Origin: Promethearchaeota archaeon
Lineage (GTDB): Archaea; Asgardarchaeota; Lokiarchaeia; Sigyniarchaeales; SOKP01
Direction of reading: 5' to 3'
DNA length: 37,187 bases
NCBI GenBank assembly: GCA_016839765.1
Contig: JAEOTP010000051.1
Location: 1-37,187, forward strand
Part shown: piece by piece, positions 484 to 32,415 of the stretch
Layout of the letters: every line of letters starts with the position of its first letter
How positions within the stretch are numbered: the stretch's first letter is position 1
Made by a program: the position numbers and the translations under genes
The notes under the pieces: model-generated
Database searches by the model: none
The model's input: the letters and a program-made list of their open reading frames with translations, nothing else
What the model was told of the DNA's origin: nothing

Positions 484-1041
484 TTAAAGCCTAAGCTTGA
501 TTTCAGCGATGTCTAAACCAGCCATAAGACAAGTAAGAACATAAAAACAATCATCTACCCTCTTTCCTGTCTTAGCTGAGGTTTCAATATAATATAAGTT
601 GAAGTCTTTGGCAAATTGATTTATTTCTTCCATAGAAATGGCTCTCTGATCAGGTAAATCGCTTTTATTACCAACTAACAAAAGAGGGATTTCAAATTTT
701 ATATTGGTACGCACTTCTTCTATCCATTTGAGAAGATGTTCAAAACTAGCATAATTTGTAAGATCAAAGACTAAAATTGCTCCTAAAGAACCCTGATAAT
801 ACATAGGTCTTATAGAACCAAATCGTTCTTCCCCGCCCGTGTCCCATACTTGCAATTTACATGTAATTAAGCCTTCATCTATTTCTATTGATATTGTTTT
901 AACGTGGAAATCTACTCCAATGGTCATTTTATAATCTTCGGTAAAAATTCCTTTTGAAAATCTAATAGTTAAAGCTGTTTTACCTACCCCACCATCTCCT
1001 ACAACAATCGTTTTAAAAAGATAATCATATTCTTGAGCCAT
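484..1041 (-). CDS. Rab/Ras-like small GTPase without lipid anchor
   Basis: This 185-residue protein has the full G-domain: P-loop GDGGVGKT (residues 15-22), switch I threonine at 40 in MTIGVDFHVK, G3 WDTGGEERF (66-74), G4 NKSD (125-128) and G5 ETSAK (153-157). It should bind GTP and Mg2+ and act as a cytosolic switch, as Rab-family proteins do. The residue matching the catalytic Gln of Ras/Rab (DTAGQE) is Glu71, so intrinsic hydrolysis may be altered. The C-terminus ends in EIKLRL and has no cysteine prenylation motif, so stable lipid anchoring is not expected. Rab-like GTPases of this kind are abundant in Asgard archaea. It may share a transcript with the membrane protein downstream. Confidence 0.95.
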   Translation of the reverse strand: MAQEYDYLFKTIVVGDGGVGKTALTIRFSKGIFTEDYKMTIGVDFHVKTISIEIDEGLITCKLQVWDTGGEERFGSIRPMYYQGSLGAILVFDLTNYASFEHLLKWIEEVRTNIKFEIPLLLVGNKSDLPDQRAISMEEINQFAKDFNLYYIETSAKTGKRVDDCFYVLTCLMAGLDIAEIKLRL

Positions 1042-27738: not shown

Positions 27739-29868
27739 TTAGTATAAACTTGGAATAATGATACGTTTATAAATTAATGAGTTAATGGCATCAAAAATTA
27801 GGTCTTTATTTTCTTCGCTGATGATATTAACTAATTCTTCCAAATAAAAATGATGATTATCTTTAGAGATTGAATGTATCACATTAATAATACGCATTTC
27901 AATTTTTGGTATATTGTTTTCTCTTTTAAGTTTAGAGATATTTATTCTATCGGAACATAATTTGAAAGGTTCTTTATAAAAAAGTTTTAGATGATCACTT
28001 AATACTGAAGGGATTATTTGATTGAAATTATCTAAAGAGCCATCAAATTCTTCTAATTGATCACTAATTTTAAGATTTAAACTTGAAGTTAAATCAACAA
28101 TTTTCTGTTTTAATCTCTGAGATGCTTTTTCTTTTAGAATTAGAATAATTCTGATGTTATTTTTATCACTAACTAGACAGTTAAAATATTTAAAGTCAAA
28201 TTCAAGTAACTTTTTTATATCATAGGGCGCAGCTGAAGCCTCAGAATAATATTTATTATCCTTTTCATCAGTTATTTCTTTCGCCATTGCCGTTAAAGCT
28301 TGAATAAAACCGGGAAATAATATTTGTTTTTCTTTTTTTAACATTGAATAGCTCTTATAAAAAATTGGGATTCCACTATTATTTTGAACGATTAAAATGG
28401 CTTGAATATTTATTGAATCTTTGAATTTTTGTATCCTCGATTGCAAATTGAAACCTCTTTTTTTCTTTCTCGGGATTATGACATGTGTTCTTAAGCTTAA
28501 ACTAGAAAGAATTGCGATAATTACAAAAGAACCAATTAAGATTATCATAATCAAGGTGTATGAGGGAGATATATCTTCATAAGAAATTAGTAATGATACA
28601 TTATCAATTGAAATAGTGATTTTTTTATCTAATACGAATTCATCTGCCAAAAAAATTTGAAAAGAGACCGATATATTTACTTCTTTTAATATTAATGCTG
28701 TAACATCAAAACCATCTAATCCTATTTCTTGAAAAGATGTATTAAATGAAATTAATCGTATTTTTCTCTCATATAGAAAATCATTTATAAAAATTCTTAA
28801 TTCAGAGTTCAGAGAGCGGCTTTCCGGCCAAATTTGATTGATTTTATAATCGAAATTTAAAATAGCACTTGTAATTTCGATATTATCTCCGGTTACTTTA
28901 TTACCTATTTGATTCCAAGATATATAAGTTAACTGGTCTATCTTTTTCTCATAACTAAATGTAAAATTTACAGATTTAATCAGTAATTCATGAAATTCAT
29001 CATTATCATATGTTCCAGAATTATCTGCGGTGTATATTCTAATTCCTAATGTAATTGTAAAATTAAAATAATTTGTACTAAGTACAGAGGTTAAAAAATA
29101 AATCAGGTCATCTTCAGGATAAGATATTAAATATGAATTCGGTAAAGTATCGTCTCCAGGTGGATTGCCTTGCCCTAAATCAGTTGGTTGAAGATACGCC
29201 ATTTCATATACCTTACCTTTTGGTAGATCAGATACTAAGACATAGAATCTAACATAGTCATAGGATTCTTGTTGATCTAAATCATCTCCAGGACAATCAA
29301 CATCTAGATCGACTGTTGCGTTTACGACTACTTGAATTGATGCAGATTTTATTACGTAATCAGACATATCTACAGACGTGGTAATATTTCTGTCCCAATG
29401 GACGCTTGGATTTTGATTTGCATTCTCATCATCAAAAAGATGATATACTTTCAATCCTTCTGAGTCTGAAAAATTGCTACTGGGGCCCTGTGGAAAATCT
29501 GGATTTGGAATAGCCACCCAATTTGAACCTATCGGTGGTGTTTCTACCAATGAAAATGTTCTTTGCTCACCTAAAATTTCAAAATTCCCTTGTCCTGATT
29601 TAATAGATGCGTTTACATCTGTAGGATCTCCTCCAGATAACTTAAACCATGAATTTGTAGGATTATCGAAAGAAGGATTTGAAATCCACTCTTTATTAAA
29701 TTCTTCATAAGTGCTATGGGTTTTTAAATTAGCAGAATCAAAGAAATTCCCTTTATTAATATCAAATAAAGTATTGATATTTGAAATCGTAAATAGAAAT
29801 TTGCCACAAAAGCACAAACTTAAAATTATAAATATTGAAACATAACTTAGTTTCTTATACATTCTCAT
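27739..29868 (-). CDS. Transmembrane receptor-like protein with cytosolic longin-like domain and winged helix
   Basis: Residues are counted from the upstream TTG at 29910 (723 codons); ATG 29868 (709 residues) is preferred, giving a signal/anchor (about 15-42). A large beta-rich extracellular region follows (about 60-445), with NYFNFTITLGIRIYTADN and KKITISIDNVSLLISYED. One membrane helix lies at 452-472, then a basic PRKKKRG stop-transfer. The cytosolic part has a longin/roadblock-like domain (about 502-650; IQAILIVQNNSGIPIFYKSY then NIRIILILKEKASQRLKQKI), and a C-terminal winged helix (about 669-720; FYLEELVNIISEENKDLIFD). It is divergent from a small GTPase, which suggests that outside signals act on that GTPase. 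No such fused protein is known to me. Confidence 0.7.
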   Translation of the reverse strand: MRMYKKLSYVSIFIILSLCFCGKFLFTISNINTLFDINKGNFFDSANLKTHSTYEEFNKEWISNPSFDNPTNSWFKLSGGDPTDVNASIKSGQGNFEILGEQRTFSLVETPPIGSNWVAIPNPDFPQGPSSNFSDSEGLKVYHLFDDENANQNPSVHWDRNITTSVDMSDYVIKSASIQVVVNATVDLDVDCPGDDLDQQESYDYVRFYVLVSDLPKGKVYEMAYLQPTDLGQGNPPGDDTLPNSYLISYPEDDLIYFLTSVLSTNYFNFTITLGIRIYTADNSGTYDNDEFHELLIKSVNFTFSYEKKIDQLTYISWNQIGNKVTGDNIEITSAILNFDYKINQIWPESRSLNSELRIFINDFLYERKIRLISFNTSFQEIGLDGFDVTALILKEVNISVSFQIFLADEFVLDKKITISIDNVSLLISYEDISPSYTLIMIILIGSFVIIAILSSLSLRTHVIIPRKKKRGFNLQSRIQKFKDSINIQAILIVQNNSGIPIFYKSYSMLKKEKQILFPGFIQALTAMAKEITDEKDNKYYSEASAAPYDIKKLLEFDFKYFNCLVSDKNNIRIILILKEKASQRLKQKIVDLTSSLNLKISDQLEEFDGSLDNFNQIIPSVLSDHLKLFYKEPFKLCSDRINISKLKRENNIPKIEMRIINVIHSISKDNHHFYLEELVNIISEENKDLIFDAINSLIYKRIIIPSLY

Positions 29869-30142
29869 AATATCAGAATTAAAATATCTAATCCTTAACT
29901 TTATTAGCAAATATACAATAAAAGTTTTCTAATATATATATTTTCAAATATTTAGTTTTTCAGAATAAACCACTTTATATTAACCAAAATTTTTCGATTA
30001 CTACTCTATAATAATACTGATCTTCCTACGATAAGCAACTCAAACCTTTTTTAAATTGGAATGTGTTATACAATTTTAAAATTCTGTTATTATCAAAACC
30101 TTTAAAAACTTTAGCACTATAGTTTACTAGGATAAGAGATTT

Positions 30143-30166
30143 TACCTAAAATCTTTATTTTAGGTA
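30143..30166. promoter_or_regulatory. Perfect 10-bp inverted repeat upstream of the GTPase
   Basis: TACCTAAAAT (30143-30152), a CTTT loop and ATTTTAGGTA (30157-30166) form a perfect inverted repeat ending 27 bp before the GTPase start. It could be an operator or an RNA hairpin in the leader. The receptor gene's winged helix makes a link tempting but unproven. Confidence 0.5.
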
Positions 30167-30193
30167 TAAGAATAAGTTTTGAGATATAATTAG

Positions 30194-30742
30194 ATGTTCC
30201 TATCAAAAACAGATCTTGCATATAAGATATGTTTATTTGGAAATAAGCAAGTTGGTAAATCTTCTTTAGTCAATCGGTTTGTAGATGGACGATTTGAATT
30301 TGATTTAAAACCGACTATAGGTGCGGCTATTTTTGTAAAAACTATTGAACTTTATAATAAGGTGATCAAACTTCAAATATGGGATTTTGGGGGTGAAGAA
30401 AGGTTCCATTTTCTTTTGAAATCATATGCCTATGGATCCTTTGGAGGAATTTTCATGTTTGATTTAACCAATGCTCATAGTTTAAATGAGATTTACGATT
30501 GGATTTCTATATTTCGGGGTTCATTGGATTATAACTTCAAAAAAGCTCCAATTTTATTAGTAGGAGGAAAATCGGATTTGGAAAATCAAAGAATCTTTGA
30601 TAGTGATGAAATAAAATCTTACCTAACTTCCTTAAATTTGTTCGATTATATTGAGTGTTCATCTAAAACAGGAGAGCATGTAAATTTTGTATTTGAAACA
30701 ATAGTATCTAAGATTATAGAAACATTTACTGATAAAAAATAA
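30194..30742 (+). CDS. Atypical Ras/Rab-like small GTPase
   Basis: The 182-residue protein has P-loop GNKQVGKS (16-23), switch I threonine 41 in KPTIGAAIF, and G3 WDFGGEERF (63-71). G4 is changed: GGKSD (124-128) instead of NKxD. G5 reads CSSKT instead of SAK. The position of the catalytic Gln is Glu68. These changes suggest altered nucleotide selectivity or slow hydrolysis. The C-terminus (ETFTDKK) has no cysteine, so no prenyl anchor is expected. The gene is divergent from the receptor-like gene across 325 bp, and a perfect inverted repeat lies in its leader. It probably acts with the receptor's cytosolic domain. Confidence 0.93.
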   Translation: MFLSKTDLAYKICLFGNKQVGKSSLVNRFVDGRFEFDLKPTIGAAIFVKTIELYNKVIKLQIWDFGGEERFHFLLKSYAYGSFGGIFMFDLTNAHSLNEIYDWISIFRGSLDYNFKKAPILLVGGKSDLENQRIFDSDEIKSYLTSLNLFDYIECSSKTGEHVNFVFETIVSKIIETFTDKK

Positions 30743-31938: not shown

Positions 31939-32415
31939 ATGAAATCAAAAAAAAATCCCTATAATACAAAGGCAACAAATCCTATAGAAGAATTTACTTC
32001 TGTAAAACCAAGTGAGATCCATGGGTTAGGATTATTTGCTAAGAAATTCATCCCAAAGAGTACAATGTTGTGGCATGCGCGCCCACAAGATGTATTAATT
32101 ATAACAAAGGACCAATTTTTAACTCTTGATACTTCTTATAAATCATCATCAATCAAGGACTATATTCACTATTTACTCACCTATTCCTATTATGATAGAG
32201 AACTTGATGCCATAATTTTTTGCTTGGATAATTCACGATTCATAAATCATTCATTTAATGCAAATTCTGGGATATCTGAAGATGAAAGTAGTTTCATTGC
32301 TGTAGCCCAAAATGACATTCAACCGGGGGAAGAAATTACCGAGGATTATTCAAAATATACAGTTTGTACCTGGTTGCTAAAATACAAACAATATTTTGAT
32401 CCCTCTTGTTGGTAG
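31939..32415 (+). CDS. SET-domain protein (lysine methyltransferase-like)
   Basis: The 158-residue protein is a minimal SET domain: IHGLGLFAKKFIPKSTMLW (28-45, SAM-binding), DNSRFINHSFNANSG (97-111, pseudoknot), and IQPGEEITEDYSKY (127-140, catalytic Tyr region). A cysteine follows at 143 and another at 157 near the end, as in some post-SET regions. SET proteins methylate lysines on histones and other proteins. Presence in an archaeon is consistent with Asgard or other archaeal SET proteins, and the substrate is unknown. A perfect hairpin sits just after the stop. Confidence 0.9.
   Translation: MKSKKNPYNTKATNPIEEFTSVKPSEIHGLGLFAKKFIPKSTMLWHARPQDVLIITKDQFLTLDTSYKSSSIKDYIHYLLTYSYYDRELDAIIFCLDNSRFINHSFNANSGISEDESSFIAVAQNDIQPGEEITEDYSKYTVCTWLLKYKQYFDPSCW

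Follow-up and report, generated by a model that had tools for sequence, protein, structure and literature searches.

The locus lies within the window, the whole 37,187-nucleotide stretch of Promethearchaeota archaeon DNA that was analysed, and comprises a gene for a single-pass membrane protein, termed here the receptor, and a gene for a small GTPase, arranged divergently head-to-head across a 283-bp spacer of 21% GC (Table 1). For the receptor, an alternative ATG at 29871, which yields a 710-aa protein, looks a better start than the TTG. Elsewhere in the window are a second, more canonical Ras-family GTPase (484-1041, minus strand) and a stand-alone SET-domain protein (31939-32415, plus strand; Pfam SET E=2e-13).

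Table 1. Features of the receptor gene, the neighbouring GTPase gene, and the spacer between them (window positions)
Feature	Position	Strand	Basis or detail
Longin-tailed single-pass membrane protein gene	27739..29910	-	723 aa from TTG start
N-terminal hydrophobic segment, residues 24-42	29785..29841	-	Hydropathy
Ectodomain, residues 44-453 (~410 residues), beta-rich by eye	28552..29781	-	Alignment A2
Single transmembrane helix, residues 453-471	28498..28554	-	Hydropathy, sequence
Predicted cytosolic longin domain, residues 501-638	27997..28410	-	Homology
Three-helix winged-helix-like segment lacking a wing, about residues 660-723	27742..27933	-	Pattern, alignment A1, weak profile support
Perfect inverted repeat, 10+10 bp, TACCTAAAAT-CTTT-ATTTTAGGTA	30143..30166	.	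Upstream of GTPase start
Rab-like small GTPase	30194..30742	+	Pfam Ras E=4e-38; best PDB match Rab3B

Hydropathy analysis detected only two hydrophobic segments in the receptor. The N-terminal one is likely a secretion signal sequence, and the second is followed directly on its C-terminal side by a basic stop-transfer stretch, RTHVIIPRKKKR; because this stretch is very basic, the C terminus is placed in the cytosol. Hydropathy and the positive-inside rule together give a type I single-pass plan of signal, ectodomain of ~410 residues, one transmembrane helix, basic stop-transfer, and cytosolic tail, confirming the single-pass layout claimed in an earlier note on this DNA. Most relatives of the receptor keep the same plan. 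Full-length orthologues, 41-48% identical, were detected in 9 genomes, and relatives in 65 of the 65 genomes of the same taxonomic family. Pfam and NCBIfam scans of the receptor gave no match.

The neighbouring GTPase had been called atypical. Its membership of the Ras family stands, and its oddity does not: it carries WDFGGEE in place of DTAGQE and, at G4, GGKxD (GGKSD) in place of NKxD, and both motifs are common to the ~17 nearest Loki relatives, indicating that the protein belongs to a normal Loki subfamily. The perfect inverted repeat reported between the genes is likewise present and unremarkable. Dinucleotide shuffling of the spacer yields arms of at least 10 in 3.4% of cases, and such arms are present in 3 of the 22 intergenic regions of the window; no second copy within one mismatch was found in the genome. 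The repeat is a possible operator that does not rise above chance, and with chance-level arms and no second site in the genome we set the operator candidate aside.

Sequence identity of the cytosolic tail

The cytosolic part of the receptor had been described as a longin/roadblock-like domain at residues 502-650. Homology favours the longin half of that description, over residues 501-638, and goes against the roadblock half. A longin is the best reading of the combined sequence evidence, which joins GTPase-fused relatives, a Pfam match in the relative L143, and matches to longin structures in the PDB. Tail profile A1 has 22 matches in the same genome, some of them with the longin fused to a GTPase; the GTPase-fused relatives comprise a 300-aa protein on contig C61 (longin plus an Arf/Ras-like domain) and an 880-aa protein with a P-loop on contig C95. 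When the tail longin was compared by hhalign with GTPase-fused and stand-alone Loki longins, the probability was 98.9% (E=1.8e-17), with control comparisons to ectodomain, GTPase, and roadblock profiles at about 1% or less. L143, another product of the same genome, has a Pfam Longin match (E=0.0035) followed by one to the HTH_47 winged helix (E=7.5e-4), an order that agrees with that of the receptor tail. The 880-aa C95 protein (L146:114-2756) is a fusion of longin, P-loop GTPase-like, and carbon-nitrogen hydrolase domains.

The family profile A4 (12 sequences) was searched against the PDB, counting matches at E up to 10. Longins made up 9 of the 22 matches (AP-4 sigma, AP-2 sigma, AP-3 mu, Bet5, TRAPPC1, and VAMP7), including all of the top four, with AP-4 and AP-2 sigma in the lead; each longin match was individually sub-significant, the best having E=0.04. 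The broader profile A5 (29 sequences) returned longins as 7 of 21 matches, not at the top, and the narrow profile A1 gave a chance match only. The receptor tail alone had no significant longin match, nor did the tail profile give any signal against six single eukaryotic longin sequences. The longin fold of the tail is a reading from sequence.

Longins differ from roadblock domains in having no N-terminal helix and an extra C-terminal helix (PMC10933270). Read off the alignment, the tail may follow the pattern beta-beta-alpha-beta-beta-beta-alpha-alpha with no N-terminal helix, and in the stand-alone tail relatives the initial Met aligns right at the first strand. Roadblock identity was considered and rejected: hhalign to Loki roadblocks gave 0.4%, and no roadblock chain was among the PDB matches of A4 or A5.

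The C-terminal winged helix proposed earlier is, for the receptor, a weak call at the level of an HTH-like helix pattern. Pfam searches of the receptor tails gave no winged-helix match. Acidic third helices characterise 21 of 23 receptors, and the receptor chain stops just past the last strand, too soon to include a wing. Pfam TrmB or HTH_47 was matched weakly by some of the soluble relatives. The receptor segment thus has neither the wing nor the basic recognition helix of a DNA-binding winged helix; protein binding, as an adaptor, is a more probable role for this helical end than DNA binding.

A family of longin-tailed membrane proteins

Matches to the receptor trace to two modules that occur independently of each other, an ectodomain (A2) and a tail (A1/A3). 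The ectodomain family, aligned at 39-52% identity, is carried by the nine full-length orthologues, by membrane proteins lacking the tail, and by longer proteins that enclose it. It has no credible match in Pfam or the PDB; of the large extracellular beta domain described earlier, the ectodomain itself is upheld and its beta character is a judgement by eye. Contig C14 of the same genome (L009:5288-12227) encodes four tandem tail-less membrane proteins with this ectodomain family, and similar tandem arrays are found in other genomes.

The tail is likewise mobile. It is found on receptors with other ectodomains, whose total length reaches ~1800 residues and more, in stand-alone proteins of ~211 residues, and inside soluble proteins. 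At least three unrelated ectodomain families or clusters carry the same longin tail, a shuffling of tails and ectodomains, and the longin-tailed membrane plan also occurs in Asgard families beyond the window's own. A transmembrane segment precedes the longin in 91 of 99 non-identical long longin proteins examined, a sample collected mostly by tail queries whose proportion is not a genome-wide rate. The gap between the transmembrane segment and the longin has a median of 30 residues (mostly 26-34), and 65-103 residues follow the longin in about four fifths of the long longin proteins. The receptor is a member of a large Asgard family of longin-tailed surface proteins, apparently undescribed so far; in the literature searched, consisting of open-licence papers, we found no description of longin-tailed single-pass receptors.

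Other longin-bearing proteins were observed in the course of the analysis. On contig C3 (L012:5589-7580), a longin-bearing membrane protein cut by the contig end has an ectodomain weakly matching macroglobulin MG4 (E=9e-5). Contig C25 (L014:2438-3817) encodes a soluble 459-aa protein with a Cys-rich N terminus and a longin-winged helix (longin-wH) module, in which a C-terminal stretch weakly matches the MIT domain (E=0.003); many genomes encode relatives of similar size, about 460 aa.

GTPase genes in the neighbourhood of longin genes

A Ras-type GTPase was found near none of the 9 full-length receptor orthologues, in flanks reaching at most about 9 kb on either side (shorter at contig ends). 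Their neighbours are instead an FGGY kinase, divergent and upstream (7/9), an AMP-binding enzyme (7/9), and a class III aminotransferase downstream (8/9). The divergent receptor-GTPase module envisaged in the earlier note is not supported. Among about 50 longin-tailed membrane proteins, only the window's receptor immediately adjoins a Ras-type GTPase, and on these counts we rejected a dedicated pair as a conserved feature. The window's genome has 67 Ras-family matches among roughly 3,800 genes, a total extrapolated from the density of 43 genes per 37 kb, and the chance of an immediate GTPase neighbour is then ~3.5% per gene; with at least 35 longin genes in the genome, about one GTPase-adjacent longin gene is expected. 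The adjacency is therefore best read as chance, and the Rab-like GTPase next door is probably a chance neighbour and not a dedicated partner.

That receptor homologues are never near a small GTPase gene is true of immediate adjacency in the orthologues, yet a Rag-type protein is encoded 7-9 genes from paralogous large receptors. These belong to a conserved block found in about 21 non-redundant genomes, in which a stand-alone longin-wH gene lies about 6 genes from the large receptor and the gene 7-9 genes away encodes a longin-RagA-roadblock protein of ~470-490 aa. This protein matches Pfam Gtr1_RagA (E=2e-24) and RagA/Gtr1 structures in the PDB, with an N-terminal match to Folliculin (Pfam E=0.001). 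The genes between the large receptor and the Rag gene are unrelated (transglutaminase, an L13e/HHH protein, and a methyltransferase), window-type orthologues do not have the block, and no relation was detectable between the Rag protein's own longin and the tail longin. In the window's genome, on contig C95 (L011:747-2926), a Rag gene is followed directly by a stand-alone longin-wH gene on the same strand, 120 bp apart. The large-receptor block is a better GTPase lead than the window's neighbour. On contig C25 (L014:6165-7322), a soluble longin gene is followed directly by a Ras-type GTPase gene on the same strand, and this arrangement is a stronger candidate for a longin-GTPase pair than the one in the window. 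C95, C25, and the Rag block bring the tail family near GTPases at the level of genes, which falls short of proving interaction.

Proposed role and known systems

The receptor most likely works at the cell surface as a sensor or an anchor, with small GTPases docking on its longin tail, given that longin and roadblock domains serve as GTPase platforms (PMC10933270, PMC3521125). The variable ectodomain, here of the 410-residue family, would bind something outside the cell, and the nearly fixed-length linker (median 30 residues) would present the longin and the small winged-helix-like unit to the cytosol. The tail longin would most likely pair with another longin and act as a docking or regulatory platform (a GEF, a GAP, or an effector) serving at least one of the ~67 Ras-superfamily GTPases, and contact or ligand state outside could then be tied to GTPase activity in the adjoining membrane patch. 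The C-terminal helical unit would more likely serve as a protein-binding adaptor than as a DNA binder. What the sequences show is the architecture, the family, the exchange of ectodomains on the tail, the longin homology, and the lack of conserved pairing; dimerisation, GTPase binding by the tail, the direction of signalling, control by the ectodomain, and a ligand are all inferred components of this proposal. Taken whole, as an Asgard type I surface protein with a longin tail as GTPase platform and a neighbouring GTPase that is there by chance, we give the explanation about an even chance of being correct.

Four other readings were weighed against it. A dedicated, co-regulated pair, in which the tail would act as GEF or GAP for the adjacent Rab-like GTPase under control of the spacer and its repeat, draws on the head-to-head gene arrangement in the window's genome and on the Rab type of the GTPase, which longin dimers bind; we regard it as very improbable, since the adjacency recurs in no orthologue and no other longin-tailed membrane protein, about one such adjacency per genome is expected by chance, the repeat is at chance level, and GTPase genes of MK-D1 generally lie outside operons with longin or roadblock genes (PMC10933270). 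The strongest of the four, though still unlikely, is that longin-tailed receptors regulate Rag-type GTPases in GATOR1/Ragulator-like nutrient or surface sensing, with an Npr2/Npr3-like tail and the stand-alone longin-wH proteins as soluble counterparts. The large-receptor block of about 21 genomes, the Rag and longin-wH genes 120 bp apart in the window's genome, and the makeup of Npr2 and Npr3 as longin plus wHTH proteins (PMC3521125) speak for regulation of this kind; the distance of 7-9 genes occupied by unrelated ones, the absence of the block from window-type orthologues, and the lack of detectable relation between the two longins speak against it.

The receptor might also be a membrane-bound one-component transcription regulator, its ectodomain sensing a signal and its C-terminal winged helix binding DNA either from the membrane or once freed by proteolysis. 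The HTH-like pattern and the weak TrmB or HTH_47 matches of some soluble relatives are consistent with this, but with receptor tails that have no winged-helix match, an acidic third helix, and no wing, the probability is very low. Some longins, such as those of SNAREs and adaptor sigma chains, do not bind GTPases. The tail could be an adaptor- or SNARE-like sorting or cytoskeleton anchor, with no GTPase regulation, on a surface adhesin or coat protein. Tandem arrays of tail-less proteins of the ectodomain family, as for abundant surface proteins, and adaptor sigma chains as the closest PDB longins both fit such a role, which we nonetheless consider rather unlikely (less so than transcriptional regulation, more so than the Rag-type link), as this genome also encodes GTPase fusions of the same longin family and a SNARE motif was not seen.

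The sensor or anchor with a GTPase-docking tail bears on a wider issue. In Asgard genomes, Rab/Rag/Arf-like GTPases and domains of the longin or roadblock kind are encoded by the dozen, and the longin-tailed surface family is a concrete candidate for their link to the outside world; the tail fragment of about 225 residues, with its soluble relatives, is testable against a defined set of GTPases. More tentatively, and with the balance of probability against it, a large class of Asgard transmembrane receptors may signal via longin-wH tails to Rab/Rag-type GTPases, a system that would predate and partly resemble the GATOR/Ragulator and Rab-GEF systems of eukaryotes.

Several known systems share parts of this architecture. 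CadC/ToxR-type membrane-bound regulators are alike in linking an outer sensor and a winged-helix-like domain through a single transmembrane segment, whereas the receptor has the reverse topology, a longin in between, and a winged-helix-like unit that has no wing or basic helix. Longin SNAREs (VAMP7, Sec22, and Ykt6) and adaptor sigma chains resemble the receptor in the longin, by profile match, and in membrane association; SNARE longins, however, are N-terminal, with a C-terminal transmembrane segment and no ectodomain, and the receptor has no SNARE motif. In MglA-MglB and Ragulator-Rag, a roadblock/longin dimer forms a GTPase platform, the mechanism proposed here for the receptor tail, but the receptor's domain would be a longin and not a roadblock, and is anchored by a transmembrane receptor rather than by lipidated LAMTOR1. 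Npr2 and Npr3 of GATOR1/SEA have a longin followed by wHTH domains (PMC3521125), an order shared with the tail family, soluble members included; they differ in having three wHTHs and neither transmembrane segment nor ectodomain, and the Pfam scan gave no Npr2/Npr3 match. A further likeness is with the longins and longin-GTPase fusions of Loki and other Asgard archaea, which have a homologous longin, belong to the same lineage, and are abundant beside dozens of Rab/Rag/Arf-like GTPases. Loki longins, GTPases, and their fusions have already been described (PMC4917890, PMC10933270), with 41 longins in Lokiarchaeum, 5 of them fused to Arf-like GTPases (PMC4917890). The described fusions join a longin to a GTPase, whereas here the longin forms the tail of a single-pass membrane protein with a secreted ectodomain.
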